DNA of 64,000 nucleotides. Source: Zunongwangia profunda SM-A87 (GTDB taxonomy: Bacteria > Bacteroidota > Bacteroidia > Flavobacteriales > Flavobacteriaceae). A program made the position numbers and the translations under genes. Positions 15,601 to 63,417 of the stretch are shown here, in pieces. The DNA lies in assembly GCF_000023465.1 (NCBI RefSeq), contig NC_014041.1, positions 4,703,501 to 4,767,500 of the forward strand. The letters run 5' to 3'. A model generated the notes under the pieces. The model did not search any database. It saw only the letters and a list, made by a program, of their open reading frames with translations, and had not been told where the DNA came from. Numbering within the stretch: position 1 is the stretch's first letter; every line of letters begins with the position of its first letter.

Positions 15601-15645
15601 AAGTAAAAAGAAAATCAGAATTACATGCGCATATTTATTTTTCAT
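12640..15645 (-). CDS. susC: SusC-family TonB-dependent receptor (mannan PUL)
   Basis: The 1001-aa outer-membrane transporter has a signal peptide (to about SFSQ), a carboxypeptidase-D-like regulatory domain (IKGTVSDESGALPGASVIIK), a TonB box-like VVVVGYGTEKR, a plug domain (about 115-230) and a 22-strand barrel ending in RVFSLGLNINF. Length is normal for SusC. It imports mannan oligosaccharides with energy from TonB-ExbBD. A 16-bp palindrome matching the GntR operator lies 20 bases before its start, which suggests direct control by the regulator at 18.2-19.0 kb. Confidence 0.96.
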   Translation of the reverse strand: MKNKYAHVILIFFLLLFYKSFSQEIEIKGTVSDESGALPGASVIIKGTNNGTTTDFEGQFSLRVDPNLQNVLVVSFVGYRTKEVAISADQQNYEILLESDLNQLDDVVVVGYGTEKRANLTGAVSTIDEKAIEGKPVTNSYQALQGESSGLIIQNTTSKPGSIPQINIRGISTINGNTPLIVVDGVISSLNNINPSNIESISVLKDAASAAIYGSRAANGVILVTTKNGKKGKPRFTYQTMFGIQEPTNFPKFASSWEYATLRNEALINSGMAPAFTPEQILNFKENGPDVNWNREIYKDIALQNNHNLSMSGADNGLNYLVSLGYLDQESLFKGPDYGYQRYNARINLEKEINDKFKMGGRMSFARNDIKDHAYFEEWIIEPTVRMPPIYNIVDENGNYTLSSGSNSNPLAQLEQGGVTNTQNDEFLGNFSLEYKPIEDLVLKAVLGGNITSNKTHQFRKAIEFAYPGGGNNQNSVTDSYNRSLYLNPFITATYTKTFAEKHDFDLLLGGSSEKYKEEYFGVTGIDIPGNDFGVIDNAGDLQSANGSGNEWAIQSVFGKIGYTFDDKYLLKANLRYDGSSRFAEAKRWGVFPSVSAGWILSEENFFTPLEDVVSFAKIRASWGQLGNQDISDLYGYQSLVGTGRNVYSFGGVGVSGAYYSVSNQNRTWETSTMKNLGIDLSFFKRKLDVTFEVFDNLTEDILLQLPVPATYGLGQPFQNAGSVRNRGWELSMNYQFETGAVNHSFNFNISDNRNEIEDLRGREFINGFDVNTILREGYAINSYYALKADGFFNSEEEINNSATPIFSSNVKPGDIKYLDRNGDGEIDYENDRFILGNAFPRYTFGATYAMDWNGFDFSVFIQGVGKRQQWLRGEIVEAFHNNNEGPVFERHLDRWTPENLDASYPRLTVGAESVNNAAKSDFYIYDAQYLRIKNLQIGYTLPDAAVHNIGLESTRLYLTGLNLLTFSPLNDLGVDPESVGSSGRVYPVTRVFSLGLNINF

Positions 15646-24610: not shown

Positions 24611-27574
24611 ATGAAAACGATTGAAATCATTAAAATTTATAATATGGGATTAAAGAATTATTTACTTTTTTGTTTTTCCTTAATTGGATTTTATGCCTGG
24701 TCACAAAAAGAGATTACAGGAACAGTTAAAGAGGAAGCTACGGGCTTACCTATACCTGGTGTAAATGTTATTGTAAAAGGAACAGCGAACGGCGTGGTCA
24801 CCGATTTTGACGGAAATTATAGTATTAATGCATCCTCTAACGACATTTTGGCTTTTTCTTATGTTGGTTTTTTATCTCAAGAAATTACGGTAGGTAATAA
24901 AACGAGTATAAATGTAAGTTTAGCAGAAAATGCCGAAGCCTTATCCGAAATTATAGTTATTGGCTACGGTGCTCAAAAAAGAGAGGATATTACCGGTGCA
25001 GTGGGGGTCATTAATGCTGATGAAACTTTTGAGGATCGGCCTAACAATGATTTGGGATCATTAATACAGGGACAGGCAGCCGGTGTTCAGGTTTTAAAAA
25101 GTTCTGGAAAACCTTCTGCAGGTTTTAATATTAGGGTACGTGGAACCAGTTCTATAGATGGTAATAGTGACCCATTATATGTGATTGATGGTGTTCCTAC
25201 ACAGGATACCCGCTCTTTAAACCCATCGGATATTGAAAGCATATCCATATTAAAAGATGCTTCATCTGCCGCTATCTATGGTGCGCAGGGAGCCAACGGT
25301 GTGGTTTTAATAACCACAAAACAGGGAAAATCTGAAAAGGCTGCATTTCAGTTTGATTCCTATGTCGGTATTTCTGAAGTATGGAAAACCCAAAAAGTTT
25401 TAAATGCAGAACAGTATCGCGATTTAATGACCGAATTAGGCAAAAACACTGATTGGAGCCAGTACAACCAAAATACAGATTGGCAGGATAAAATTTTTGA
25501 AGAAGGATTATCTCAAAATTATCAGTTAGCCGTTTCTGGAAATAATAACGGAACGCAATATTATATTTCGGGAGGTTACCTTAGTCAGGAAGGCGCGGTA
25601 AGAAGTGCTGAAATGGAACGTTATAGTTTTAAAACCAATTTATCCAAAGAAATAAATAGCTGGATAAAGATTGGTACCAATATCAATTACACCCATTATA
25701 CAGATGTAGATGTGACCGATAATTCTGCGGTTAATCAAGGTGGGGTTTTATTAGGAGTATTAGCTACCCCTCCAAATATAGGGATATATAGAGAAGACGG
25801 TTCTTATACCAGTAACCCATTTCAGGATTGGGAAAATCCGTTTTCAAGCACAGATGCTGCAGATAGGAGATATAAAAACCAAAGATTATTGGGAAATATT
25901 TATACCGAAGTGAAATTCTTAAAAGACTTTACTTTTAAAACCAATTTCGGAATCGATTTTAATGCAGACCGTAATGATTATTTCCTGGATCCATTTACCA
26001 CTAGTTACGGGCGTGCGACCAACGGTATTGGACGTTATAATACAAATATTAATAATTACTTTATATGGGACAATACCCTTAGATATAACCACAGCTTTGG
26101 GGATCATAAACTGGAAGCCCTTGTAGGGAGTGTTTTCCAGAAAAACCGATGGGAAAACAGTAGCATCGAAAGAAGAAATTTTGCCAGTGCAGAAATTACT
26201 ACTCCGGGAGCCGGATCTGAAATCATAAGCGCGAATGCCGGCAAAAGCGAAAAAACAAATGCGTCGTTTATTTCCAGAATAAACTATGACTTCAAAAAAA
26301 GATACTTATTAACAGCCAATTTTAGAGCTGATGGCTCTAGTTCTTTTGGGCCTGCTAACAAATGGGGATATTTTCCATCCTTCTCTGCCGGATGGAGAAT
26401 TTCCAGAGAGGCTTTCCTGGAAGATGTAGAAAATTTATCTGAACTAAAACTAAGAGCCGGCTGGGGGATCGTTGGTAACGACACCGGAGGTTATGCATAT
26501 CTTGCAAGGGTAGGATCTGGAGGAAATTACCCTATTGGAGGGCAAACAATGCCGGGAACTTACCCCGTCACTATTGCGAATGACGATTTAAAATGGGAAG
26601 AATCTGAGCAAACGAATATCGGTATAGATTTAGGTTTATACAATGGGAATATTACCTTTTCTGTAGATGCATATTTAAAAAAGAACTACGACCTTCTTTT
26701 AAATAATCCGCTACCAACCGGAACCGGATTTAGTTCTGCCATCCAAAACGTAGGGGAAATTCAAAATAAAGGATTGGAATTTCAATTAAACACGGTAAAC
26801 ATAACTACAGATAATTTCTCGTGGACCACTTCTGCAAATCTTTCCTTAAACCGAAATGAGGCTAAATATATTGTTGGGCAGGTAATTACCCGAGGGGATG
26901 TGGCCAGTAGAGGTAATGTAAGTTTAATTAAAGAAGGAAAAGCCTTAGGTACATTTTACGGGTATCAATGGGGCGGTGTAGATCCACAAACAGGAGATGT
27001 TTATTACATCGATCAAAATGGCGAAAGTACATTTAATCCTACAGCAGATGATCGACGAATTATTGGCGACCCTAACCCAGATTTTATTTATAGTTTGGGG
27101 AATACGCTATCCTATAAAGATTTCAGTTTAAATATTTTCTTACAGGGATCTCAAGGGAATGATGTCTTTAATGCAACCCGTTTACAGATGGAAGCAATGG
27201 TAGACTCTAAAAACCAATTAGCTTCTGTAAATAATAGATGGAGACAACCGGGAGATATTACTAATATCCCAAGAGCTTTAGAAGGTGATACCAAAAACTC
27301 AAGACTTTCAACACACTATGTTGAGGATGGTTCATATTTAAGATTTAAAGCGGTAAGCTTAAGCTATAATCTTCCCGCACCACTGCTGAATAAATTGAAT
27401 CTAAGCACATTGAAGCTCTATTTAACAGGCGAGAATTTAATTACGATTACAGATTATTCCGGTTTTGATCCTGAAGTTAATGCCTTTGGAGGCAATACAG
27501 CAGTACAGGGGGTAGACTTTGGTACCTATCCGCAAACCAGAAACGTAATTTTAGGAATGAATGTTAGATTTTAA
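24611..27574 (+). CDS. susC: SusC-family TonB-dependent receptor (beta-glucan PUL)
   Basis: 987 aa from the ATG at 24611; the ATG at 24644 (MGLKNYLLFCFSLIGFYAWS) gives a cleaner signal peptide and may be the true start. A CarboxypepD_reg-like domain (ITGTVKEEATGLPIPGVNVI), a TonB-box region (IIVIGYGAQKRED), a plug (about 130-240) and a barrel ending in RNVILGMNVRF are all present. It imports oligosaccharides freed by the surface enzymes of this locus. susD follows after a 14-base gap; the sensor gene is divergent upstream. Confidence 0.95.
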   Translation: MKTIEIIKIYNMGLKNYLLFCFSLIGFYAWSQKEITGTVKEEATGLPIPGVNVIVKGTANGVVTDFDGNYSINASSNDILAFSYVGFLSQEITVGNKTSINVSLAENAEALSEIIVIGYGAQKREDITGAVGVINADETFEDRPNNDLGSLIQGQAAGVQVLKSSGKPSAGFNIRVRGTSSIDGNSDPLYVIDGVPTQDTRSLNPSDIESISILKDASSAAIYGAQGANGVVLITTKQGKSEKAAFQFDSYVGISEVWKTQKVLNAEQYRDLMTELGKNTDWSQYNQNTDWQDKIFEEGLSQNYQLAVSGNNNGTQYYISGGYLSQEGAVRSAEMERYSFKTNLSKEINSWIKIGTNINYTHYTDVDVTDNSAVNQGGVLLGVLATPPNIGIYREDGSYTSNPFQDWENPFSSTDAADRRYKNQRLLGNIYTEVKFLKDFTFKTNFGIDFNADRNDYFLDPFTTSYGRATNGIGRYNTNINNYFIWDNTLRYNHSFGDHKLEALVGSVFQKNRWENSSIERRNFASAEITTPGAGSEIISANAGKSEKTNASFISRINYDFKKRYLLTANFRADGSSSFGPANKWGYFPSFSAGWRISREAFLEDVENLSELKLRAGWGIVGNDTGGYAYLARVGSGGNYPIGGQTMPGTYPVTIANDDLKWEESEQTNIGIDLGLYNGNITFSVDAYLKKNYDLLLNNPLPTGTGFSSAIQNVGEIQNKGLEFQLNTVNITTDNFSWTTSANLSLNRNEAKYIVGQVITRGDVASRGNVSLIKEGKALGTFYGYQWGGVDPQTGDVYYIDQNGESTFNPTADDRRIIGDPNPDFIYSLGNTLSYKDFSLNIFLQGSQGNDVFNATRLQMEAMVDSKNQLASVNNRWRQPGDITNIPRALEGDTKNSRLSTHYVEDGSYLRFKAVSLSYNLPAPLLNKLNLSTLKLYLTGENLITITDYSGFDPEVNAFGGNTAVQGVDFGTYPQTRNVILGMNVRF

Positions 27575-27588
27575 AATTGATTATGATT

Positions 27589-29070
27589 ATGAAAAATATA
27601 AAGCAATACATAATGATTTCATTAGTAGCAGGAACTTTGGTTTCCTGTAATGATGAACTGGACATAAAACCAATTTCTGAAGAAACAGCAGCCTCAGCCT
27701 ACGCTACAGGTCCGCAAATACAGGCGGCATTAACAGGGGTGTATGAATCTTTTCAATCTTCAGATTATTATATCTGGGATAGGGTGATCTATCAGGATGT
27801 AAGATCGGATAATCACTATGCAGGTGGTGACAATCCCGAAATTTATCAATTTGACCGTATAGATATCACACCCACAAACGGCAGAATTTACGGGATGTGG
27901 GGAAATGTTTATAACGCCATATCCAAAGCCAATGTCGTTTTAGAAAATGCCCCCTTAGTAGAAAATAGAATCACCGAAGAAGAACGTGAACACATTTTAG
28001 GGCAGGCTTATTTTTTACGGGCTTATCATTATTTTACCCTTGTAAAAAATTTTGGTGATGTACCATTATACCTGGAGTTTATAAGCACTACCGACCCTTC
28101 GATGACTAGAAAACCAAGAGCCTCGGTAGACGAAGTGTATACCCAAATCATGGCCGATTTAGAGGAAGCTTTAACGCGCTTACCCGATGATTATGGTAAT
28201 GACGCGAGCGTAAATAAAGCCAGAGCCACAAAAGGCGCAGCGAATGCACTTTTAGCCAAAGTTTATGCACAAATGCCAAATCCAGATTACAACAAAGTTT
28301 TAGAGCACACCAACGCAGTAATTAACAGCCCTGCAGGGTATACCCTACTCGCTAATTATGCCGAATTATTTGATGGAAATCATTATAATAATTCAGAATC
28401 TATTTTAGAAATTCAGTTTTTAGGAGGCGACGAAGGAAACTGGGCGCCACAAATGCAATTACCGCCTTCTATTAGTGGTGACAGCTGGAGAAAATTTGTC
28501 ACTCCGTCTAAAGATTTAGTGGCGGCTTTTGATGCCGAAGGTGATAACATTCGTAAAAATGCAACCGTACTTTTTGAAAAAGTTTCCTGGATCGATGAGT
28601 ATTGGGGAAATGCCCCTAACAGTAGTGTTGCTTTTGCATATAAATGGAAAAATGCCAGCGCCTGGGCAAGTGCAGATAACGAATACTTACTTCGCTTAGC
28701 CGATATCATATTACTAAAAGCCGAAGCTTTAAACGAATTAGGGCAAACAGACCAAGCTGTAGAACTAGTGAATATCATTAGAAATCGAGCTGAATTAGAG
28801 CCGCTAACTGCAGGAGAAACAGCCTCTCAAAATACAATGAGGGAAGCTATTTTAAAAGAGCGGCGATTAGAACTTGCTCAAGAAGCTAAACGTTGGGACG
28901 ATTTAATTAGATATAACAAAGCTATTGAAGTTATGAATAGTGTAGATGATATCGATTTAAGTACTGGCCAACCGGTAAATTACAGTGTAACCGAAAAAGA
29001 TCTGTTATTACCAATTCCCCAAAACGAGATCGATAGAAACCCTAATCTTACACAAAATCCTGGATACTAA
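27589..29070 (+). CDS. susD: SusD-family glycan-binding lipoprotein (beta-glucan PUL)
   Basis: About 493 aa from the ATG at 27589; upstream TTG and ATG codons at 27577 and 27583 are possible. It has a lipobox (LVSC), SusD helices (HILGQAYFLRAYHYFTLVK) and the C-terminal hallmark KERRLELAQEAKRWDDLIRY with PIPQNEIDRNPNLTQNPGY. It is the substrate lid of the SusC partner. The next gene (GH30) starts 1 base after the stop, so transcription and probably translation are coupled. Confidence 0.94.
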   Translation: MKNIKQYIMISLVAGTLVSCNDELDIKPISEETAASAYATGPQIQAALTGVYESFQSSDYYIWDRVIYQDVRSDNHYAGGDNPEIYQFDRIDITPTNGRIYGMWGNVYNAISKANVVLENAPLVENRITEEEREHILGQAYFLRAYHYFTLVKNFGDVPLYLEFISTTDPSMTRKPRASVDEVYTQIMADLEEALTRLPDDYGNDASVNKARATKGAANALLAKVYAQMPNPDYNKVLEHTNAVINSPAGYTLLANYAELFDGNHYNNSESILEIQFLGGDEGNWAPQMQLPPSISGDSWRKFVTPSKDLVAAFDAEGDNIRKNATVLFEKVSWIDEYWGNAPNSSVAFAYKWKNASAWASADNEYLLRLADIILLKAEALNELGQTDQAVELVNIIRNRAELEPLTAGETASQNTMREAILKERRLELAQEAKRWDDLIRYNKAIEVMNSVDDIDLSTGQPVNYSVTEKDLLLPIPQNEIDRNPNLTQNPGY

Positions 29071-49323: not shown

Positions 49324-49653
49324 TCATTCCCTGTTCAATTTTTGATCAGCAAGGGTATCAAATCTGAACATGTTCACAACTGAGCCTATTTTTGGGCTAC
49401 TAGAGGGATGGTATTGGAGATACCCCCAATGTTTAAGCTCTCGAACTAACTTATGATACGTTGTCCGGGAGCGTATTTTAGCCAATCCCCTTACCTGCTG
49501 ACTATTGATCATCAAATTCCGGGGAAAATGCTTTTGATTCCACAGCTCAAAAAAGGCCAGGTATAAGCTACGATGTGATACGCCGATGCGATCATCTTTT
49601 GCAAATCTCCGAAGCACGGCATTAAGATGTCTTATATAATTTACCTCACTCAT
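49324..49653 (-). CDS. Small winged-helix protein of the mobilization module
   Basis: The 109-aa product has a predicted winged helix (about 10-95: NSQQVRGLAKIRSRTTYHKL, LKHWGYLQYHPSSSP). Its ATG overlaps the stop of mobC by four bases (ATGA), so it is translated with it. Proteins like it accompany mobC in Bacteroidota integrative elements; it may regulate mobilization. I cannot name the family. Confidence 0.72.
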   Translation of the reverse strand: MSEVNYIRHLNAVLRRFAKDDRIGVSHRSLYLAFFELWNQKHFPRNLMINSQQVRGLAKIRSRTTYHKLVRELKHWGYLQYHPSSSPKIGSVVNMFRFDTLADQKLNRE

Positions 49654-51254
49654 TTCTTTTGAATTTCTGTGGTAATAATCGTCTTCACTTCCCGGTATAT
49701 TTTCTGAAAATTCGATTCCAATTCTTCCTGACTTACTTCATGTTTAGGAGTAGGCAGTTCTTTTGACCATTGGGGAGCTGCGAATTTCACTTTTCGATCT
49801 TTGCCATCTGAGAAGGTCACAAACTGTCCCGGTTTCAATCGAAAGAAAAGATCTGCCCTGATTTTAGCCACTTCACGTTCACTTTTGGTAGTTCGGGTAT
49901 CAAAATTCAGATTATCACTTTTACTCACGCTAATACTCTTACGCTTTACAATCTCAAAGAAACTTTCGTAGTATTTCGCGGTTTCCGGATCATTCACCTT
50001 TCCGAAAAATTGGTAAGACAGATTACTCAGAATAGCTTTTCCTGCCTCCCTACCGTAGAGGATATCATTCTGGATCTTATCCTGGATCACATAAACGGTC
50101 GAAATATTATAGCTTCTTAGGGTGGCGGGAATACGTTGCATATTCAACAGCCGGATCGTAGAAGCCTCTTCCACAAGAATAAAAGATCCCAGGCGATCAT
50201 GCACACTCATTTGTTTGGTGATACTATGAATAACGGTGGCGATGATGGGCGAATAGGCCGATTCAAATTTTGGATTATTCACTACGGAGATCACTCCCGG
50301 ATTTTCTGCATTATTAATATCCAGGGGAATTTCATCTTCAGAAAGCACCATAAAGATCCGTTGGGTACTAATCTTTTTAAAAGCATTAGAAAGGGTACTT
50401 TTTACCGCTGCGGTCTGGCTTTCCGGCTCTACCCCATTAATAAAGGCATTGGCCATCGCCTTTGATGTAAAATTAGAACTCAACAATTCTATCAGTTCAT
50501 AGGTGGTACATTGTTGGAATATGGCAATCATATGAGGAAGGGTACAATAATGAGGATAATCGGTTTTTAGTTTCCAGATCAGCCCTCCGATGATTCCTTC
50601 CGCAGCATCATTAAAAAACTTGGAACTGCCTGAATAACCACTTTCTTTTTTCTCCAATAAATTTTCCAGAAGCACCCTTGAAATCTCATTGACGCTTTCT
50701 TCATCCAGCATATACCGCGGAGCAATAGGATTCACTTTATGAAATACCCGATCAAAAGAAATCAGGTAAAAAGGGAGCTTACTTTCTTTAAATAAAGGAT
50801 AGGCAATTCTGGAGAGTTCAAAATTTTTATAGTCATGGATAATTCCACTAAAGCTATGACGGCTAAAATGTTTAAGAAATTGCGCCACCACACTTTCAGT
50901 CTTTCCACTTCCAGCCGCACCGATAATGGACACCCCGCGACGAATATCTTTTAATTTCATGGAACCAGAAGAAAGAGGCATCCGAAAAGCATATTGTTTT
51001 TCCGGTTTTCCTGTCCCAACCTGGAATAATAATTCATATAGGAGTGCATTTATGATCATTAGGGGCATTACTATACGCGAGCCCACCAGCACTAGCATAT
51101 CAAAATCAAAACCTTTTGAAAAGCTAATTAATAACAGGGTAAAAATATAGCCGAGATTAATCGCATTTCCCCATGGCGTATTTTTAAGCGAGAAGTAGAA
51201 GATAATCGCTGATCCAGCGATAAAAAAAATAAGGATATATAAATTAACAACCAT
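49650..51254 (-). CDS. mobC: MobC/TraG-type coupling protein (VirD4-like ATPase)
   Basis: The 534-aa product has two N-terminal membrane helices (about 3-22 and 30-75), Walker A GAAGSGKTES (about 112-121) and a Walker B-like SFILVEEAST near 355. Other TraG/VirD4 features include GIIHDYKNFELSRIAYPLF and the sensor TVYVIQDKIQND. It would bring the relaxase-DNA complex to a type IV secretion channel supplied by another element. It follows the relaxase after 12 bases. Confidence 0.9.
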   Translation of the reverse strand: MVVNLYILIFFIAGSAIIFYFSLKNTPWGNAINLGYIFTLLLISFSKGFDFDMLVLVGSRIVMPLMIINALLYELLFQVGTGKPEKQYAFRMPLSSGSMKLKDIRRGVSIIGAAGSGKTESVVAQFLKHFSRHSFSGIIHDYKNFELSRIAYPLFKESKLPFYLISFDRVFHKVNPIAPRYMLDEESVNEISRVLLENLLEKKESGYSGSSKFFNDAAEGIIGGLIWKLKTDYPHYCTLPHMIAIFQQCTTYELIELLSSNFTSKAMANAFINGVEPESQTAAVKSTLSNAFKKISTQRIFMVLSEDEIPLDINNAENPGVISVVNNPKFESAYSPIIATVIHSITKQMSVHDRLGSFILVEEASTIRLLNMQRIPATLRSYNISTVYVIQDKIQNDILYGREAGKAILSNLSYQFFGKVNDPETAKYYESFFEIVKRKSISVSKSDNLNFDTRTTKSEREVAKIRADLFFRLKPGQFVTFSDGKDRKVKFAAPQWSKELPTPKHEVSQEELESNFQKIYREVKTIITTEIQKK

Positions 51255-51266
51255 AACAGATAGGTT

Positions 51267-52292
51267 TTAATAGCCGATAGAACTAGCTTTTATACCGGCT
51301 TCGATTATTTTTTTAAGTTGTTTATATGCAAACCCCACTTTACTTTGGGGCAGATGCAAAGCAGGCAATTGCATTCCTGCTTGTCGGATCATTTTAAAGG
51401 CAATTTTTTTCTCGTTAAGCCTGAGACGCCTTAAGGACAAAAAGTATTGTTTAGGATTTTTACTCAGTAGTTTTCGCGCTGAGTAGCTTTCCACATAATT
51501 TCGATTGTACTTAAACATCTTATCAAAAGCCATTTCCGAATGCTGAAAAAACCGATCCCGTTCAAATCCCCGTTTCACCAATTTCCCATGCATCTTTACT
51601 TCGGAAGCCTTATACTTACTCCCCGGAGACAAGCTATAGGAGTTGGAGGCATCTTTACGACTTACGATAATATGGATATGGCTTTGCAGGCCTTCCTTTT
51701 TCATTCCCGGTTCCACCATCTGTCCCCTAATCTTATAGGGAGCCTCCCGGATCAGCTTTTGAATCTCATTCTCAATTTTTTGAGTATTTCCGGAAATCTC
51801 TCCGCGTGCTACTTTTCGAAGCTCATTTTTAAGATGTGCTATTTGTTTTGCATAGGGTTTATTCTCCCGAATGGCAATATCATTAGTCTTGTAAGATCGT
51901 TCCTGTTCAATTTTCGCGAAATACTTAATATCATCAATAGAAACCGGGCGACCGTTTATTTCCCGATGAAAAGAACTCGCATATTCTTTCATGGCTTCCC
52001 GAACAAAAGCTTTAAGTTTTTCAGGATTGCTGTGAATATGTTGTAATTCATAACGGCTGGGATTAATAGTAATCGAATAATATTTAGGCTCTTTCAACTT
52101 TAGTTTATCTGTATTCCCATCAATCTCTTTAATCACCTGGAAAGGTTTGATCCCATCCTCGTGCTGATTAAAGAAAAACTCTTTTTCCGATAGATCTTTT
52201 CCCTGGTTTTCTTTTTCCAGATAGTTCACAAAATCCCCTGCACTTTGAGAAAAAGCGCCACCAAGTTTTTGAGGGGAGATGGTGATATACAT
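51267..52292 (-). CDS. mobB: MobB-type relaxase (DUF5712-like)
   Basis: The 341-aa product begins MYITISPQKLGGAFSQSAGD. The metal-binding HxH motif appears in QSHIHIIVSRKD (about 208-219) and a Tyr-rich N-region (KLKEPKYYSITINPSRYEL) carries candidate nucleophile tyrosines. The family relaxases nick oriT and pilot the strand during transfer. The gene is between the BtgA-like gene (12 bases) and mobC (12 bases). Confidence 0.87.
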   Translation of the reverse strand: MYITISPQKLGGAFSQSAGDFVNYLEKENQGKDLSEKEFFFNQHEDGIKPFQVIKEIDGNTDKLKLKEPKYYSITINPSRYELQHIHSNPEKLKAFVREAMKEYASSFHREINGRPVSIDDIKYFAKIEQERSYKTNDIAIRENKPYAKQIAHLKNELRKVARGEISGNTQKIENEIQKLIREAPYKIRGQMVEPGMKKEGLQSHIHIIVSRKDASNSYSLSPGSKYKASEVKMHGKLVKRGFERDRFFQHSEMAFDKMFKYNRNYVESYSARKLLSKNPKQYFLSLRRLRLNEKKIAFKMIRQAGMQLPALHLPQSKVGFAYKQLKKIIEAGIKASSIGY

Positions 52293-52304: not shown

Positions 52305-52832
52305 TTAAGATTTCCGTTTAATGGCTATTTTAAATTGTTCAAATTCCGTTCTGGGGATATTTAATTTCAGATAATCCGCTCCAAAGGCGTTGCCTTTAAT
52401 TTCCACTTGTTGAAGCAGGTATTCCAAATCTTTCTGGGTGGCTTTTAAGGCCTCCTGCAACCGGGAGATTTCCAATTCCAATTGTTCCCGGCTTTGCTCA
52501 CCCGTTGCAGTTTTTTTATTTTTTTCTTTGATTGATGCTGCTGGTAAGTTGCGACCTTCCAATAATAATTCCAGCATCAGGAATCCCGGTTTTGTTTGGG
52601 TCTTTTCAATATTTTTCAGGATAGCGATCACCGCATCAATTCTTTTCTTGATAAGTTGTTCAAGGCTCACTTTGGAGGGCACTAGAGTTTCAAAAGGCGA
52701 GAGGTTATTTTTCTCAAAAAAGTCTAGGATCAAATCCAAAGTTTGGGACTGATTCGAGTTATTTTTCTTTGAAAACTCCCGAAACCTATTCGCGGTATGA
52801 GCTTTCACTTGAAGTCTGGATTTTGCGGTCAT
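52305..52832 (-). CDS. BtgA/BfmA-family mobilization accessory protein
   Basis: The 175-aa product has an N-terminal ribbon-helix-helix-like region (RLQVKAHTANRFREFSKKNN then SQTLDLILDFFEKNNLSPF), a basic middle, and a coiled-coil C-terminus (LELEISRLQEALKATQKDLE). BtgA/BfmA proteins bind oriT and assist the relaxase. It is first in the mob operon and adjoins the large noncoding gap to its right, where oriT should be. Confidence 0.84.
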   Translation of the reverse strand: MTAKSRLQVKAHTANRFREFSKKNNSNQSQTLDLILDFFEKNNLSPFETLVPSKVSLEQLIKKRIDAVIAILKNIEKTQTKPGFLMLELLLEGRNLPAASIKEKNKKTATGEQSREQLELEISRLQEALKATQKDLEYLLQQVEIKGNAFGADYLKLNIPRTEFEQFKIAIKRKS

Positions 52833-54930: not shown

Positions 54931-55457
54931 AAATTGAACTAGTTTGAAAAAAATGATTTACTTATTATATCCGGAAGCGTTTTTCTTTCTTTTGATTTTT
55001 TAGTTTTCTTTCCGAATAGATATGTAGCTGTTGATTTCATATTGAACTTTTTTGATTTACTTCCCATAGTGCCGTATAGCTGTTATCTTTTTTTGATGCT
55101 TACACGATTCAATATTTTGGATTGATAAGTACTTATAAAAGCGAGTGTAGTGAGCGGCTTATGCAGTGCGGTTCAACTCCAAAATATTGGTGTTTTGCAA
55201 CCCAAAAAAAGAACGCTAAGGGCAACTGAAGTGAATTAAAAACCGGGTAGGAAGAAACAGTAACATAGACGGAAGTGAAATTAAATGGAATTGAAGCATT
55301 CCTATATTAAATCTCATTACATAATACTAAAATTCTAATCCTGTAAGAATCATCGAAAAAACAGAGATAAGACCGTAAAGAATTGATAATAAAATAAATA
55401 CTTATCTTTAGAGAAGCACCTCCACTTTTTATAACACTGTAGTCTTAGTCATTGGGT
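54931..55457. other. Gap before the NERD gene, with a long inverted repeat
   Basis: No gene seen. 55110-55189 holds a 12-bp inverted repeat (see separate entry). The last ~150 bases, AT-rich, must contain the NERD promoter. The first part, with T-rich tracts on the plus strand, lies upstream of ssb and should hold its promoter. Confidence 0.5.
55110..55189. repeat. 12-bp inverted repeat enclosing a structured 56-base loop
   Basis: CAATATTTTGGA (55110-55121) pairs with TCCAAAATATTG (55178-55189). The loop contains the 12-base palindrome ATAAGTACTTAT (55125-55136) and a GC-richer GCGAGTGTAGTGAGCGGC. It may be a replication/transfer site or a small structured RNA of the element. Confidence 0.5.
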
Positions 55458-56222
55458 ATGGAACTCACTTTCCTTCTTATCATTTTTATGGTCTTTTTCG
55501 TAGGTTCTGACTTTGTCATGAATGTGGCCATTCCAAGAATGAAAGGAAATTATGGAGAAAGAAGAGTTGCCGCAAAACTTCGAAGACTTCATAAAAGGGA
55601 TTATATTGTGCTAAACAATATTCTTCTACAAACTGGGGATAGCAGTTCCCAAATAGACCATATCGTTATTTGTTCTTCAGGTATTTTTGTCATTGAAACA
55701 AAACATTATAAAGGTTGGATTCACGGACATCAAAAATCTGATTATTGGAGCCAGACCATTTTCAAGCATCATACCAAGTTTAAAAATCCCATTCGACAAA
55801 ATTGGACTCATGTATTTGCTTTAAAAAAGTTTCATCCGAACTTTCAGAAACTAAAATACTATCCTATTGTTGTTTTTTCTGGACGTGCCCGTTTGAGAAA
55901 TGTAACGTCAGAACTGCCTGTATTATATCGGTGGCAACTTATACGATACATTAGAACAGAAAATAATCAGAATCGATTATCACCAGACCAAAGGCTATGG
56001 ATCGCAGAAACCATTAAATCCAAAAATTTAAAAAGAAGAAAAGATCGGAAAAATCATAACCGCAAGGTTAAAAGGGGGATTAAAGACCGTAAAATCAAGG
56101 CACATTTAAACATCTGTCCAAGGTGTCAAGGTGATTTATTGTTAAAAGAAGGGCGCTATGGTAACTTCTACGGGTGTTCTAATTACCCCAACTGCACTTA
56201 CACCAAAAGCCTTAGATCGTAG
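55458..56222 (+). CDS. NERD-domain protein with topoisomerase-type zinc ribbon
   Basis: 254 aa from the ATG at 55458 (a TTG lies 6 bases before). It has an N-terminal membrane helix (about 1-20) and the NERD nuclease-related domain (about 30-150): NYGERRVAAKLRRL, DSSSQIDHIVICSSGIFVIE and TKHYKGWIHG, with D/E/K residues in the PD-(D/E)xK pattern. A basic linker is followed by a C-terminal zf-C4_Topoisom ribbon (CPRCQGDLLLKEGRYGNFYG, CSNYPNCTYTKS). NERD proteins are predicted membrane-linked nucleases, frequent on mobile elements, perhaps in defence or DNA processing. It is the only plus-strand gene of this block. Confidence 0.88.
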   Translation: MELTFLLIIFMVFFVGSDFVMNVAIPRMKGNYGERRVAAKLRRLHKRDYIVLNNILLQTGDSSSQIDHIVICSSGIFVIETKHYKGWIHGHQKSDYWSQTIFKHHTKFKNPIRQNWTHVFALKKFHPNFQKLKYYPIVVFSGRARLRNVTSELPVLYRWQLIRYIRTENNQNRLSPDQRLWIAETIKSKNLKRRKDRKNHNRKVKRGIKDRKIKAHLNICPRCQGDLLLKEGRYGNFYGCSNYPNCTYTKSLRS

Positions 56223-56297: not shown

Positions 56298-56397
56298 CCT
56301 AAAAAAAGGGAAGGTTTTTGTTGTATATGCTGCCTGCATTTAGTGAGTGCCATTGAGACCTCACCTTACGGGTGTACAAGCACCCTCATTTTTAATT
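56298..56397 (-). ncRNA. Candidate guide RNA downstream of the dCas12f-like gene
   Basis: Directly after the dCas12f stop, the minus strand reads through three short stems: GGGTG-CTTGTA-CACCC (56370-56385), GTGAG...CTCAC (56343-56364) and ATGC-AGGCA-GCAT (56327-56339). It then reaches ATATACAAC, like the AAC ends of Cas12f repeat scaffolds, and a 23-base non-structured stretch starting AAAAACCTTCCC and running into seven T. TnpB and Cas12f guides commonly lie 3' of the protein gene in this orientation. The last stretch would be the guide. No second repeat is present, so this is a single-guide layout. Function is inferred from position and structure. Confidence 0.5.
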
Positions 56398-57495
56398 TTA
56401 ATCCACGATAAGTTCAATTCCGGCTTTTTCGGCCTTGTATTTTATTTTGGTCATCAGCTCATAATAATTCCAATTCCTTAAAACAAATCCGTCTTCTTTG
56501 GCGATTTCCATTTTATCTTCCTGATTTAATAAAATAAGTGTCCCGGCTTCATGTTTAATACAAAAATCAATAAGCTTTCGGCTGTATACATGCAAGCGGT
56601 TACTAACATAGTTTTTTTCTTTTTCGTGAAATCTCTCTACTGCTTTTGTTTTGCGTTTACGACCTTTTCCTGATCTACAATAGGCAGTAGCATTTTGCGC
56701 CCTTTTTAAAGCAGCCTGTATGGCTAGTCTTCTATATAAAAACTCTTCCCGACTGCCGATACTAAGTGTTGCTTTTCTGGATTTTACTATAATAGGATGT
56801 TCAAGGGATAAGGAAGCTTCTGCAATGACTTCTGGTTTTAGGTTATGCTTTTCTTTCGCGACTTCAAATACGGCCAACCAATAAATTTTTCCTTTATTCA
56901 ACTGAATTTTAGAAGTACATAGCTTTATGTTTCCGGCTACTACCTGTTCCAGCAAGCTTCGTTTATCAGTATAATCCTTTCCTAAATAGGTTTTAAAAGG
57001 GATGGAAAATAGACGAAAGCAAAATGCTTTTTTTTCTTTTTTATAGGATAATCCATGAATACCTATCGTTCCAAATGGAAAAGGAATATCCCTTCTAAAA
57101 TTTGCAAGCGAGCGCTCTCCCCTCCTATATTGTACCAAGTTTTTACTAAAATTATTCATGATATTATAATTCATATTGGCTAAAATGTTGGTTGGGACCT
57201 CACCTTTAAAACGATCAGATACCACCCGGTAGGTACAATTGCTCTTTGAACGATTGAGTATGCCGTCTTCAGCTTTTTTTTCATCCACCAGCCTATATCT
57301 TATACCTTCCGATAAATAAAAAAAGTCCTTAATCATTTCCTGAATATACTGGTGGGTAACAATAAGGTTACCCGCCCTATAGCTTCGGTTTTGCCAACGG
57401 TATAGGGTATCAAGAGCCTCTTTTCTTTCTTCTTTGTTAGGCGCATCCACCAGTAGCTGGATCTTTCGGGTGAGTTTTATAGTTTCTTTTCCCAT
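56398..57495 (-). CDS. Nuclease-dead Cas12f/TnpB-like RNA-guided DNA-binding protein
   Basis: The 365-aa product has a TnpB/Cas12f C-terminal layout. The bridge-helix block GKGRKRKTKAVERF (about 277-290) and EKNYVSNRLHVYSRKLIDF are well kept, as is LRNWNYYELMTKIKYKAEKA near the end. The RuvC-I Asp position reads SLSLEHPIIV (Ser228 where DxG is expected), the RuvC-II Glu position reads ILLNQED, and the protein stops at ELIVD, before the zinc finger and RuvC-III Asp. So it should bind guide RNA and DNA but not cut. It starts 2 bases after the sigma-factor stop. I recall such dCas12f-sigma(E) pairs being reported as RNA-guided transcription activators in Bacteroidota. A plain decayed transposase is less likely, given the open frame and tight pairing. 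Confidence 0.8.
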   Translation of the reverse strand: MGKETIKLTRKIQLLVDAPNKEERKEALDTLYRWQNRSYRAGNLIVTHQYIQEMIKDFFYLSEGIRYRLVDEKKAEDGILNRSKSNCTYRVVSDRFKGEVPTNILANMNYNIMNNFSKNLVQYRRGERSLANFRRDIPFPFGTIGIHGLSYKKEKKAFCFRLFSIPFKTYLGKDYTDKRSLLEQVVAGNIKLCTSKIQLNKGKIYWLAVFEVAKEKHNLKPEVIAEASLSLEHPIIVKSRKATLSIGSREEFLYRRLAIQAALKRAQNATAYCRSGKGRKRKTKAVERFHEKEKNYVSNRLHVYSRKLIDFCIKHEAGTLILLNQEDKMEIAKEDGFVLRNWNYYELMTKIKYKAEKAGIELIVD

Positions 57496-57497
57496 GA

Positions 57498-58274
57498 TTA
57501 AGCAGATTGTTGTTGTTTATGTTTGCTTTGTAAAAGCTTATAAGCAGTCATAAATTCCTTGTGGACTTCCTTTTGGGATAGTTGCAATTCTTCTGCAATA
57601 GCCGCAAAAGAATAGTGCATTTCATTCCGTAGCTGTAAGACTTTTTCTTGTTCCCTGGTTATTCTAGTATTTTTCTTTACTTGAATTTGATCAGGTTTTG
57701 AACCCAAATTGCTCCCTTGGTGAATAATCTTTTTAATATCGTCAATCGCTCTTTTTACCTCATTGCTGGTATAGGTAGTGCTTGTTCCCATAAGCTCAGC
57801 AATATTTTTATACTGAAAACCGTATTTTAAGCAGAGTTCAATTAGATATCTTCTTTCCGGCCTGAGTAAAGGAAAAACACACTTTATTCGGTCAAGAGCT
57901 TTTTGGTTGGCTTCCTGATCTTTTAGATGCTCATCTTCTGACTCCGGGTCATAGCCATGTATATATTCCTGGTAGTTCTCGTAATTATCCAAGCTGTTGA
58001 TGTTCCGGTGAAAATTATTCCTGGGTCGGATATAGTAATAGCTACAATCCCGTTTCATCACATGAAGAAGGAAGTAGAGCATATGTTTAGGATCTTCTAT
58101 ATGATCTCTTTTCTCCCATAATTTTAGGAACGTATCCTGAAGAATGCTCTCAATAACAAATTCATCCTTAATTAACTGCTTCCCCATCCAAAAGAGCTTA
58201 TGCTGATATCGGGCATAAATAAACTCCATGGCATCAGGATGCCCTTCTTTTAAAAGTTTAAACTCACGTTCCAT
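57498..58274 (-). CDS. Sigma-70-family (ECF-like) factor with extra C-terminal HTH, dCas12f partner
   Basis: 258 aa from the ATG at 58274 (a TTG at 58280 is the only longer option). Region 2 (about 1-85) has FIYARYQHKLFWMGKQLI and SILQDTFLKLWEKRDHI. Region 4 (about 135-180) has RRYLIELCLKYGFQYKNIAE and TSNEVKRAIDDIKK. After a basic linker (about 185-200) comes a second sigma4-like HTH: REQEKVLQLRNEMHYSFAAI then LQLSQKEVHKEFMTAYKLL. Ordinary ECF factors (about 170-200 aa) lack this extra domain, and no anti-sigma gene is nearby. With the dead-Cas12f gene 2 bases downstream, the likely job is to recruit RNA polymerase to a guide-chosen site. The extra HTH could be the docking part; that is inference. 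Confidence 0.85.
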   Translation of the reverse strand: MEREFKLLKEGHPDAMEFIYARYQHKLFWMGKQLIKDEFVIESILQDTFLKLWEKRDHIEDPKHMLYFLLHVMKRDCSYYYIRPRNNFHRNINSLDNYENYQEYIHGYDPESEDEHLKDQEANQKALDRIKCVFPLLRPERRYLIELCLKYGFQYKNIAELMGTSTTYTSNEVKRAIDDIKKIIHQGSNLGSKPDQIQVKKNTRITREQEKVLQLRNEMHYSFAAIAEELQLSQKEVHKEFMTAYKLLQSKHKQQQSA

Positions 58275-58412
58275 AGCCAACAGTTTTTAATGTTGGATGG
58301 GATTTTCGAATAGGTACTGTACTAATAAATAGTAAGAGTATAGCGGTGTGGAGTATAGTTTTCATAATTTGCTGTGGTTTTGGTTGTCTTTAATTAGTTT
58401 ATGAAACCATAG

Positions 58413-58466
58413 GCCTTCCCGAAAAAGCCGTTAAACTTAGGGAAAGGCTTATGCTTGAGGGAAGGC
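58413..58466 (-). repeat. Nested GCCTTCCC inverted repeats
   Basis: GCCTTCCC (58413-58420) pairs with GGGAAGGC (58459-58466), enclosing AAGCC/GGCTT (58425-58429/58446-58450) and a third copy, GGGAAAGGC. Outside lie AGCC and GGCT. This could be a structured leader RNA or a protein site upstream of the sigma gene. CCTTCCC also occurs in the predicted guide at 56.3 kb, but flanking bases differ. Confidence 0.45.
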
Positions 58467-58643
58467 TTTCTGGCTTCTAGCCTAGACTAAATGGCTAATT
58501 CATTAAACGGTGGTTTGTTTCTTCTTATAGGTTTGGTTTTAAATCTCAAAGAATTTTACATGATAAATTCAATTATGAAATTATGGTTTAACGTAAAAGG
58601 CTGTACTTGTAGTTGTTGGATAAAGATATAAATAATTTCTTTT

Positions 58644-58665: not shown

Positions 58666-58709
58666 TATTTTTGATTTTTTTACTCATCTTAGGTGTAGAA
58701 AGGGCTAAG

Positions 58710-58949
58710 ATGCAAAACGAGAAAGATAAAGTTGATTTTTTAATCCAATTTGGTTCTAATTTTGGTAAAATTAGAAAAATGAAAAACTTAAGTTTTAGGG
58801 CTCTTTCCCAAAAATGTGATTTAGACTACGCTGATCTTAATAAAATTGAGAAAGGAAAAAGGAATATTACTCTTACTACTATAGCTGAACTAGCAAGAGG
58901 ACTCAATGTACATCCTAAAGAATTATTCGATTTTGATTTCACGCCTTAA
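58710..58949 (+). CDS. Small Xre-family regulator
   Basis: 79 aa from the ATG at 58710 (MQNEKDKVDFLIQFGSNFGK); the frame also opens from a TTG at 58671. The HTH_3 domain is complete (LSFRALSQKCDLDYADLNKI then EKGKRNITLTTIAELARGL). It lies 300 bases before cas9 and divergent from the sigma/dCas12f operon. It may control itself or a neighbour; no toxin partner is seen. Confidence 0.85.
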   Translation: MQNEKDKVDFLIQFGSNFGKIRKMKNLSFRALSQKCDLDYADLNKIEKGKRNITLTTIAELARGLNVHPKELFDFDFTP

Positions 58950-59250: not shown

Positions 59251-62200
59251 ATGAAAAGAATTCTTGGATTGGATTTGGGTACGAACTCCATTGGCTGGGC
59301 ATTGGTAAATGAAGCAGAAAACGAAAAAGAAATTTCAAAAATCATAAAGCTTGGGGTACGCGTTAATCCCTTGACAATTGATGAAAAAACCAATTTTGAA
59401 AAAGGTCGCCCGTTATCAACCAATGCAGACCGGACATTAAAACGAGGAGCTCGCCGTAATTTGCAACGCTATAAATTAAGAAGAGAAAATCTTATTGAAA
59501 TTCTAATAGATAATCACATTATTACTAAAGAGACGCCGCTTACCGAAATAGGAAAAGGCACAACATACCAAACACTCTCTTTAAGAGCTAAGGCTGTAAG
59601 AGAGCGAATTGATTTAGAAGATTTTGCAAAAGTCCTTTTAGCCATCAATAAAAAAAGGGGGTATAAAAGTAGTAGAAAGGCTAGTAATGATGAAGAAGGA
59701 CAAGCAATTGATGGAATGGCAATAGCAAAAGAACTCTACGAGCGAGGTATTACACCAGGACAATACGTTCTTGAATTGCTTGAAAATGATAGAAAATATA
59801 TCCCGGATTTTTATCGCTCAGATTTAAAACAAGAATTCAATAAGATTTGGAACAATCAAAAAACATTTTACCCTGAAATTTTAACGGATGAATTATTTAA
59901 AGAATTAGATGGCAAAAATAAATCTCAAACTTGGGCGATTTGCCAAAAACCTTTTAATATAAAGGGAATCAAGCGTATTACAAAAGGAAGAGAAAAAACT
60001 ATCGAAAACTATCATTGGAGAGTAAAAGGATTGTCGGGTAAGTTAAATTTAGAAAAACTAGCCATTATCTTACAAGAAATCAACAACGATATAAATCAAT
60101 CAAGTGGTTATTTAGGGGGTATTTCAGATAAAAGTAAAAAGCTATACCTTAATAAAGAAACTGTAGGAGAATTCCTTTATAAACAAATAGCAAAAAATCC
60201 GCACACCTCACTCAAAAATCAGGTTTTCTATCGTCATGACTATTTAGATGAATTTGAACAAATTTGGAAAACCCAATCAAATTTCAATGCCAATTTAACA
60301 GATGAATTAAAACAAGAAATAAGAGATGTTATTATTTTCTATCAACGCAAAATAAAATCTCAAAAATCACTGATAAGCTTCTGCCAGTTTGAAAGTTGGG
60401 AACAAGAATATTTTGATAAAGAAACAGGGAAAACTAAAACAAGAACCGTGGGTAGACGTGTTATCCCTAAATCTTCACCCCTATTTCAAGAATTCAAGAT
60501 ATGGCAGAATCTAAATCATTTAGTATTTACAAATAGTGAAACCGATGAAAAGATTGAAATTAAAGAAGTGGAACAAGAAATACGAAAAGAACTTTTCGAG
60601 GAACTGAATCTACGGGGAGACTTAAACCCAAATGATCTCCTTAAAATCTTAAGATCTCAATTCAAAATTGGTAAGCTAAGTAATTGGAAATGCAATTTTG
60701 AAAAGATTGAAGGGAATAGAACAAATGCGGCACTTTTCAATATCTATCAAAAAATATCAGATTTTGAAGGCTATGGAATTGATTGGAATAAATCAAACGC
60801 AAAAAAAATTAGAAAGGAATTAAAAGCTACTTTTCCCGAAATAGGAATAGATGCTTCTATTTTAGAATTTGATGCTTACAAAAAACAACTTACCAACCAA
60901 TCCAGCTATGAATTGTGGCATTTATTATATTCGGCTGAAGAAGATTTTAAAATTTCCGAACAGGATAAATTAATATACGGAAATTCTAGTGTTTCATTAA
61001 AGAAAAAGCTTCACCTAAAGTTTGGCTTCAATCCAGAATATGCAAAAATGCTGGCTAATTTATCTCTGATGTCGGACTACGGAAACTTATCTGCTAAGGC
61101 CATTAAAAAAATTCTCCCTTATTTAGAAGATGGTCATCTATATTCTGAAGCTTGTAGGTTAGCCGGTTATAATCATTCTAAAAGTTTGACAGCAGAAGAG
61201 TTAGAAAAATTTGAGCCAAAAGCTAAACTCGATTTACTTAAAAAGAATAGTCTTCGCAATCCTGTTGTCGAGAAAATTTTAAACCAAATGGTGAACGTCG
61301 TAAATCAAGTTATTGATACCTATGGAAAACCAGATGGCGTTAGGATAGAATTAGCTAGAGAATTGAAAAAATCAGCAAAAGAAAGAGCTGAAATGACTAA
61401 AGGGATTGCAGATGGTACTAGAAGAAATGAGGAAATCAAAAAGATCATAACTCAAAAATTTGGAATCCCAAATCCTACGAAGTCAGATTTAGTACGTTAT
61501 CGACTATGGCAGGAACTAGAATCTAGAGGGTATAAAGACATATTTACCGACAAATATATAAGCCCAGATAAAATATTTTCAAGCGAAATAGATATAGAGC
61601 ATATCATTCCAAAAGCATTGCTTTTTGATGACTCATTTTCAAATAAAACATTATCCTTTAGGAATGTTAACCTAAAAAAAGCAAACCGTACTGCTTTAGA
61701 CTTTATCACACAAGATTATCAGTCAAATGTAGAAGCATACAAAGAACGTGTGGAAACTTGGAATAAGGATAACCATATTTCAAAAGGCAAGAGAAATAAA
61801 CTACTAATGTCTCTCAAAGATATTCCTGATGGATTTATAGAGCGTGATCTAAGAAATAGCCAATATATAGCCCGCAAAGCGAAAAGGATGCTTTATGAAG
61901 TATTCCCAAATGAAGTTTTAGCTACTTCTGGAAGTATTACCGATAAGTTAAGAAGTGACTGGGATTTAATCAATGTAATGAAAGAGTTGAACCTGCCCAA
62001 ATATAAAGCACTGGGGTTAACGGAATATGAAGAACGGCTTGATAAGGGAACGGAAGAACTATTTAAACACGAAGTAATAAAAGATTGGACAAAACGTAAT
62101 GACCACAGGCATCACGCTATGGATGCATTAGCAGTTGCTTTCACCACACATAATCATATTCAATATATAAATAACCTCAATGCCAGAAAGGATATTACTC

Positions 62201-63417
62201 AGGACAATCATCCTATTATAAAAAATATTGAAAATCTTATTACAGAGGTAAATTCAAAAGGAAAACGTGTTTTCAAAGCACCTATGAGTAGTTTTCGTGA
62301 AAGCGCAAAAGAACAAATTGAAGCTATACTAGTAAGTTTTAAAAATAAAAATAAGGTTGTAACTAAAAATATAAACCAAACTAAAAAAGAAGGAGGATTT
62401 AATTACCAAAATGCCAAAACTCCCAGAGGTCAATTGCACAAAGAGACCATATATGGAAAGTCAAAACAACCACTAGAAAAACCTGTAAAAATAAATAATA
62501 GGTTTTGCAAGAAGCAGGTAGGTTTAATAATTAATTTTAAAGAGCAAGAAGCTGTATTGCACCACCTTAAAAAATACGATAATAACGAAAAAATAGCCTT
62601 TAGCAATAAAACCCTTAAAAGTGATCCTATCCAAGTTAATGGAAGTCCTCTTAGAGAAGTGAAGATTTTTGAAGAGATCTTCACGATTCGTAAAGATATA
62701 AATCCAGATAATTTTAAAACTCAAAAACATCTAGATAAAATTATTGATAAAGGCATTAAAGAGGTAATGAAGAAGCGTTTAGAAGAATACAATGGTGACT
62801 TTAAAACAGCTTTTTCAGATTTAGATAAAAATCCTATTTGGTTAAATCAATCTAAAGGCATAACCATCAAAAGAGCTACAATTTCAGGAGTTACCAATGC
62901 AGAACCTTTACATCAAGCCAAAGATCATTTAGGAAATATAATTTTGGACGATAACGGAAAAGAAATTCCTATTGATTATGTAAGTACAGGTAATAATCAT
63001 CATGTAGCCATTTATCAAGATGAGAGTGGTAATCTTCAAGAAGAAGTAGTTTCTTTTTATGAGGCTGTTATACGTAAAAATCAAGACCAGCCAATTATAA
63101 AAAAACGGCATCCAAAAGGGTGGAAATTTTTGTTCACGATGAAGCAAAACGAAATGTTTGTTTTTTCTTCAGAAAATTTTAATCCGAGTGAGATTGATCT
63201 ATTGGATGAAAAAAATGCTGCTATTATAAGCCCTAACTTATTTAGGGTTCAAAAAATTGCAACAAAAAATTATATGTTTAGGCATCACCTAGAAACAGAG
63301 GTCACCAATAATTTAGATTTTACGTATAGACATTTCCAAGCAACCGAATGGCTAAGAAATTTGTGTAAAGTTAGAATAGATCATATTGGCAGAATTGTAC
63401 AAATAGGAGAATATTAA
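59251..63417 (+). CDS. cas9: Cas9, type II-C
   Basis: The 1388-aa product has RuvC-I ILGLDLGTNSIGWALV (D8), an Arg-rich bridge helix (TLKRGARRNLQRYKLRREN), RuvC-II IELARELK (E700), HNH DIEHIIPKALLFDDSFSN (D781, H784) and RuvC-III HRHHAMDALAVAF (H955, D958). All catalytic residues are intact, so it should be an active RNA-guided nuclease. The ~300-residue C-terminal PAM-interacting part is Lys-rich. It resembles the long II-C Cas9s of Bacteroidota. cas1 begins 6 bases after its stop and the tracrRNA is divergent upstream. The PAM cannot be read from sequence. Confidence 0.98.
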   Translation: MKRILGLDLGTNSIGWALVNEAENEKEISKIIKLGVRVNPLTIDEKTNFEKGRPLSTNADRTLKRGARRNLQRYKLRRENLIEILIDNHIITKETPLTEIGKGTTYQTLSLRAKAVRERIDLEDFAKVLLAINKKRGYKSSRKASNDEEGQAIDGMAIAKELYERGITPGQYVLELLENDRKYIPDFYRSDLKQEFNKIWNNQKTFYPEILTDELFKELDGKNKSQTWAICQKPFNIKGIKRITKGREKTIENYHWRVKGLSGKLNLEKLAIILQEINNDINQSSGYLGGISDKSKKLYLNKETVGEFLYKQIAKNPHTSLKNQVFYRHDYLDEFEQIWKTQSNFNANLTDELKQEIRDVIIFYQRKIKSQKSLISFCQFESWEQEYFDKETGKTKTRTVGRRVIPKSSPLFQEFKIWQNLNHLVFTNSETDEKIEIKEVEQEIRKELFEELNLRGDLNPNDLLKILRSQFKIGKLSNWKCNFEKIEGNRTNAALFNIYQKISDFEGYGIDWNKSNAKKIRKELKATFPEIGIDASILEFDAYKKQLTNQSSYELWHLLYSAEEDFKISEQDKLIYGNSSVSLKKKLHLKFGFNPEYAKMLANLSLMSDYGNLSAKAIKKILPYLEDGHLYSEACRLAGYNHSKSLTAEELEKFEPKAKLDLLKKNSLRNPVVEKILNQMVNVVNQVIDTYGKPDGVRIELARELKKSAKERAEMTKGIADGTRRNEEIKKIITQKFGIPNPTKSDLVRYRLWQELESRGYKDIFTDKYISPDKIFSSEIDIEHIIPKALLFDDSFSNKTLSFRNVNLKKANRTALDFITQDYQSNVEAYKERVETWNKDNHISKGKRNKLLMSLKDIPDGFIERDLRNSQYIARKAKRMLYEVFPNEVLATSGSITDKLRSDWDLINVMKELNLPKYKALGLTEYEERLDKGTEELFKHEVIKDWTKRNDHRHHAMDALAVAFTTHNHIQYINNLNARKDITQDNHPIIKNIENLITEVNSKGKRVFKAPMSSFRESAKEQIEAILVSFKNKNKVVTKNINQTKKEGGFNYQNAKTPRGQLHKETIYGKSKQPLEKPVKINNRFCKKQVGLIINFKEQEAVLHHLKKYDNNEKIAFSNKTLKSDPIQVNGSPLREVKIFEEIFTIRKDINPDNFKTQKHLDKIIDKGIKEVMKKRLEEYNGDFKTAFSDLDKNPIWLNQSKGITIKRATISGVTNAEPLHQAKDHLGNIILDDNGKEIPIDYVSTGNNHHVAIYQDESGNLQEEVVSFYEAVIRKNQDQPIIKKRHPKGWKFLFTMKQNEMFVFSSENFNPSEIDLLDEKNAAIISPNLFRVQKIATKNYMFRHHLETEVTNNLDFTYRHFQATEWLRNLCKVRIDHIGRIVQIGEY

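Follow-up and report, generated by a model that had tools for sequence, protein, structure and literature searches.

The window, by which we mean the whole analysed stretch of 64,000 nucleotides, derives from Zunongwangia profunda SM-A87, whose genome (5.13 Mb) has two copies of the operon described here, the second one at 5.06 Mb, and whose nearest named relative is Zunongwangia atlantica (92%). The operon, encoded on the minus strand, consists of a sigma factor gene and, after it, the gene of a nuclease-dead Cas12f-like protein (dCas12f); behind the latter comes a structured stretch ending in ATATACAAC. The unit and the features around it are:

56300-56319, minus strand: predicted guide AAAAACCTTCCCTTTTTTTA, placed by its position after the conserved scaffold and by promoter matches, its first 12-13 nt being identical to two susC promoters
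56320-56400, minus strand: guide-RNA scaffold ending in ATATACAAC and overlapping the dCas12f stop codon (covariance model R1, covarying pairs)
56398-57495, minus strand: nuclease-dead Cas12f-like protein, 365 aa (PDB 9n9c "Nuclease-deactivated Cas12f", residues 1-364, E 1e-175; alignment of 25 members)
57498-58280, minus strand: sigma-70 family (ECF-type) factor, 260 aa (Pfam and NCBIfam matches; RpoE chain of PDB 9n9q, E 1.1e-86)
58264-58365, minus strand: short susC-like leader ORF, 33 aa, MKTILHTAILLLFISTVP..., overlapping the sigma start, in an upstream region homologous to susC promoters
58436-58450, minus strand: second related site AAGCCTTTCCCTAAG in the operon's own upstream region
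58454-58470, minus strand: possible self-site G-AAAGCCTTCCCTCAAG in the same upstream region, mismatching the present guide
58671-58949, plus strand: divergent Cro/C1-type HTH regulator, 92 aa (Pfam HTH_3; homologue in 15 of 81 loci)
49650-51254: MobC/VirD4-like protein, below cut-offs
51267-52292: MobB relaxase, over cut-off
52305-52832: BfmA-type protein, over cut-off

The sigma factor and the 365-aa Cas12f-like protein, which the first-pass annotation of this DNA had placed 2 bases apart on one strand, are indeed separated by that gap (ORFs 57498-58280 and 56398-57495, both on the minus strand). The sigma ORF begins with TTG, an ATG at 58274 being compatible too, and its product, which matches chain C ("RpoE") of 9n9q, comprises region 2, region 4 and an extra C-terminal region-4-like HTH (Pfam, NCBIfam). 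The two genes are linked in homologues as well: in 73 of 79 related loci, a count that leaves out L090-L092, dCas12f begins 1-2 bases after the end of an ORF that is at least 200 aa long, and sigma homology is present in 78 of 81. Within the order to which the window organism belongs, a relative is encoded in 12 of 296 genomes. Judged by its solved relatives 9n9c, 9n9m and 9n9q, the window locus is a member of the already known dCas12f-sigma(E) kind of RNA-guided transcription system, in accordance with the membership proposed in the annotation.

Among these relatives the dCas12f-RpoE system of Flagellimonas (Allomuricauda) taeanensis (PDB 9n9c, 9n9m, 9n9o, 9n9q; locus L022) has a dCas12f of the same length that is 70% identical end to end, the same sigma partner and the same scaffold RNA directly behind the gene; the sequence printed in the PDB is the protein encoded in L022 (compared by eye). 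The two systems differ in their guides and in what lies upstream of sigma, a structured leader in F. taeanensis and a copy of a susC-type promoter in the window. Entry 9n9q contains dCas12f, RpoE and RNA polymerase alpha, and the RNA polymerase alpha of the window genome finds its best match in 9n9p and 9n9q. Recruitment of RNA polymerase and promoter-independent start would be expected in Z. profunda by homology, through 9n9q.

The RuvC site of the window protein is not intact. The RuvC aspartate of active Cas12f (VGVDLGINIP) aligns to a serine in EASLSLEHP, and this serine, S228, is invariant in all 25 aligned members. The second-motif Glu of active Cas12f falls in an alignment gap, and the family has L-x-N-Q-E-D there, whose acidic pair sits nearby, unaligned. 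Of the outcomes that would have refuted the reading of the annotation, neither intact RuvC residues nor unlinked genes are seen. The protein was also said to end ahead of the zinc finger and RuvC-III, and both are missing, since the match to the Cas12f TNB domain covers just positions 1-20 of 60, weakly (E 0.11, below cut-off), and the protein stops there. The best Foldseek matches were two entries released on 2025-12-24, 9n9m ("dCas12f-gRNA-DNA complex (partial R-Loop)") and 9n9c ("dCas12f-gRNA complex"); as the structure model is of low confidence (mean pLDDT 66, pTM 0.41), this match rests largely on sequence. The Cas12f nucleases of type V-F CRISPR are homologous to the window protein (PDB 9nzo and 8hr5, E 1.4e-45 and 2.4e-23), but they have an active RuvC nuclease, whereas the window protein is without the RuvC aspartate and the C-terminal zinc finger/RuvC-III, and its guide RNA is encoded directly behind the gene.

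The structured stretch 3' of dCas12f, proposed earlier as an adjacent guide RNA, is both conserved and covarying. The segment 56320-56400(-) scores 92.7 bits with a covariance model that was trained on the window sequence among others, and three of its 17 consensus pairs show two-sided changes, the best one being G-C in 19 sequences, A-U in 11 and G-U in one. The model was built from 31 sequences, 51 of the 80 named loci being independent of its building, and a covariance search located the scaffold immediately 3' of dCas12f in every one of the 81 related loci. At gathering scores the window has no match to any Rfam family. The predicted guide starts right after ATATACAAC and runs from 56319 downwards, with AAAAACCTTCCC first and then T's. 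There is one scaffold RNA within the window, and behind its guide lies a possible remnant of a second unit (15 of 17 bases, equalled in 11 of 1000 shuffles).

Predicted targets of this guide were found among the susC genes of the same genome, for which 700 bp upstream of each of all 56 were taken. Two of the 56 regions match the guide, over 13 and 12 nt, 84 and 85 bp upstream of the susC start codon; the 12/12 match is absent from the other 54 and from the antisense strand of the susC upstream regions. Among 300 dinucleotide shuffles of 55 susC regions, an exact match was seen in 0.01 regions on average and in no more than one region per shuffle. Outside the guide itself the exact 12-mer occurs seven times in the genome; two of these copies precede susC, and the other five fall on the sense or antisense strand of genes or open frames. 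Of the core CCTT(T)CCC there are four occurrences in the zone from 60 to 120 bp before the ATG (3355 bp in all), none on the antisense strand of that zone, and two in the remaining 35200 bp. All four core-bearing susC genes head operons with an M16 peptidase; SusD at these operons was confirmed by Pfam in one case and read from the sequence in the others. The core site marks a subset of such operons, because three more susC genes with a same-strand M16 gene 2-3 kb downstream are without it. The housekeeping box TAnnTTTG is absent within 250 bp before all four core-bearing genes, which is uninformative because it is likewise absent before 44 of 51 other susC genes. As a separate observation, an inverted repeat precedes susC (L185, L186, L320, L321), with CCTTCCC at 79-85 bp and GGGAAGG at 53-55 bp before the ATG, inside AAACCAC-type direct repeats. 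The two susC genes within the window (12640-15645 and 24611-29070, among the 56) have no guide core before their starts.

Short matches alone are uninformative, because a looser core pattern occurs 139 times genome-wide against 147 in the control; a pattern of G plus 12 bases with one mismatch shows no excess either (15 against 19 in the reversed control). Tested dCas12f-sigma(E) homologues reportedly have a 5'-G motif before the target and start at a fixed distance. As for the minimal 5'-G motif put forward in the annotation, the two strongest susC matches are preceded by A and C, and a G stands only before the self-site, which mismatches the guide. A target inside the window was considered and rejected, the best match other than the guide having 3 mismatches in 20, near 2345, after C or A and within the ORF 1451-2641. 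The two guides of the second operon copy have no exact target, and a scan for places with up to two mismatches to a guide of this copy yielded no target either (18 places, the guide itself included, against 37 in the reversed control).

We consider it highly probable that the scaffold and the genes of sigma and nuclease-dead Cas12f make up a single dCas12f-sigma(E) unit, predicted to start transcription at the promoters of susC-susD-M16 peptidase operons that the predicted guide matches over 12-13 nt. By analogy with the solved relatives, dCas12f would bind the RNA encoded behind its gene, open DNA at the guide match with no cutting and bring its partner sigma together with RNA polymerase, and transcription would start a set distance downstream of the match. 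It is in this sense that we infer, for Z. profunda, binding of RNA and of the target, activation, and feedback on the operon itself. The predicted and likely outcome is an RNA-guided switching-on of two nutrient-uptake operons in the same genome. What is new here, for a sigma-dCas12f system, is a natural guide together with probable native targets and a probable regulon of susC-susD-M16 peptidase uptake operons; the guides differ between genomes, and through the likely native targets the role of these systems becomes directly testable. A literature search on susC-susD-M16 operons found no report.

The region upstream of the sigma gene is itself homologous to the two susC promoters (E 5.5e-8 and 3.5e-7), and the conserved blocks that it has in common with them extend outside the guide match. 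This could be attributed to the sigma factor alone reading a shared susC-type promoter, the likeness of the guide having come about incidentally when the operon copied that promoter, but we regard such an explanation as improbable. The guide sits behind dCas12f, outside the promoter copy, and it fits the susC sites better, over 12-13 nt, than the operon's own copy, G-AAAGCCTTCCC, which has one inner mismatch to the present guide when the guide is read from its second A; the scaffold is moreover kept in all 81 loci, and the solved relative binds guide RNA and DNA. It should be noted that the promoters are homologous to one another, hence not independent cases. If initiation is RNA-guided, as we prefer to read the locus, the operon appears to have captured a target promoter and may drive itself, a feedback made plausible by the copy of the susC promoter in front of the sigma operon. 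Self-matching as a rule of the family was rejected: a match of 10-12 nt within 450 bp upstream of sigma is present in 18 of 61 loci with a readable guide (antisense maximum 7), and 43, the window among them, have less; the count leaves out 18 loci, 15 in which the pattern missed the guide RNA and three with no sigma ORF of 200 aa. The divergent HTH regulator at 58671-58949 is a possible candidate for a regulator of the sigma-dCas12f operon.

TldR proteins are flagellin repressors without a sigma partner; in the window a sigma gene adjoins, and the matches lie before susC rather than flagellin genes. They are described as RNA-guided repressors derived from nuclease-dead TnpB relatives, acting on flagellin (PMC13418256); they resemble the window system in being RNA-guided, nuclease-dead TnpB/Cas12 relatives that act on transcription and differ from it in target and in partner. 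A system that binds the susC promoters yet represses them in the manner of these proteins, its sigma factor having another role, is to our mind no more probable than the action of sigma alone, as 73 of 79 loci have a sigma gene next to dCas12f, and RpoE and RNA polymerase alpha accompany the relative in 9n9q.

Guides and promoters were also compared in relatives, whose susC promoters had been chosen by similarity to those of the window. The first guide of Z. atlantica, AAAGCCTTTCCCC, has a 13-nt match at one of the three susC promoters fetched from that species, and the guide of Salegentibacter sp. 24, AAAGCCTTCCCT, a 12-nt match at the one fetched from its genome. The Salegentibacter guide also matches promoters of other genomes (11-12 nt) and the sigma upstream regions of the window and of Z. 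atlantica (12 nt), and the window guide agrees with the Salegentibacter promoter in 13 of 14 positions, the same as at home. These comparisons are suggestive of co-adaptation of guides and promoters across genomes, not proof of it. For the guide of F. taeanensis no target was accepted; it is found exactly solely at itself, and of six places with one mismatch five lie inside ORFs and one 320 bp before a small ORF.

In 14 of 81 loci the guide RNA is present in two or three copies. The window genome has three scaffold copies, of which the window contains one and the second operon two. The additional copy of L023 sits before dCas12f, that of L032 matches weakly and in part, and L031 has one of its three copies at a distance of 5 kb. 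A fragment corresponding to dCas12f residues 340-365 (71-92% identical, tblastn) precedes the extra copies in two of seven multi-copy arrays, both from Salegentibacter, and similar, more decayed pieces of dCas12f could be seen by eye ahead of other extra copies. The extra guide RNAs likely arose by tandem duplication of the 3' end of dCas12f together with its RNA. The genome of Salegentibacter sp. 24 (G298; L352, L363, L370) has 13 scaffold matches at E 1 or better, several of them in tandem arrays with differing guides.

In Chryseobacterium and other Flavobacteria many guides begin with GGCGTGGG, and the same guide start recurs inside a structured leader of about 150 nt, containing GGCGTGGGCT, which lies upstream of sigma-dCas12f operons and of susC-type genes (L326, L330, L346, L342, L022 and others; alignment A6). 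In L326, L330 and L346 the genes behind it read as susC-type. The alignment of this leader (22 sequences) has 35 pairs, eight of them with two-sided changes, and no Rfam family reaches E 0.5 at the element in the loci searched. By eye, two pairing partners are available to the GGCGTGG of the leader, a GCTCACG upstream of it and a CCACGCC further on that stands before a T run. In these relatives, as distinct from the window, an RNA-guided start past the first arm of the leader would skip such a terminator, because GGCGTGG has these alternative partners and one of them, CCACGCC, precedes the T run.

That the guide RNA acts on mRNA, CCTTCCC pairing with the GGGAAGG arm before susC and altering folding or termination, is the least probable of the alternatives, for although all four core-bearing susC regions carry both arms and other Flavobacteria have the guide sequence within a covarying structured leader, the exact identity over 12-13 nt is with the upstream arm in sense orientation, as for a DNA target, and the solved relative has an R-loop structure. 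Returning to RNA-guided initiation at a DNA target, we tentatively suggest, as a scenario that is somewhat doubtful as a whole, that multi-guide regulons are written by the operons themselves. Tandem duplication would copy the 3' end of dCas12f along with its guide RNA, the copies would drift to new guides, and guides and susC promoters would co-evolve; in the clade of the window the operon would have captured its target susC promoter and become self-driving, and in other Flavobacteria the guide would match a structured leader that susC-type genes share with the sigma operon, and initiation guided by RNA within this leader would skip the built-in terminator.

The unit had further been described as carried near a mobilization module that could move it between hosts. 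The mobilization genes are present, about 3.5-8 kb from the sigma-dCas12f unit, but their relatives lie near only three of 64 related loci of more than 20 kb (fetched 10 kb flanks, E 1e-8 or better), on which ground mobilization was rejected as a conserved partner, and a travelling regulator is only a guess for the window copy. A type II CRISPR locus is situated about 1 kb from the operon (window 59251-63417, continuing in L373, G000:C1:4766500-4774500), with cas9, ORFs reading as cas1 and cas2, and, behind cas9 (L373), an array of 28 repeat copies about 77 bp apart. On the other side, convergent to the guide RNA, a NERD-domain protein with a topoisomerase-type zinc ribbon is encoded at 55452-56222 of the window.
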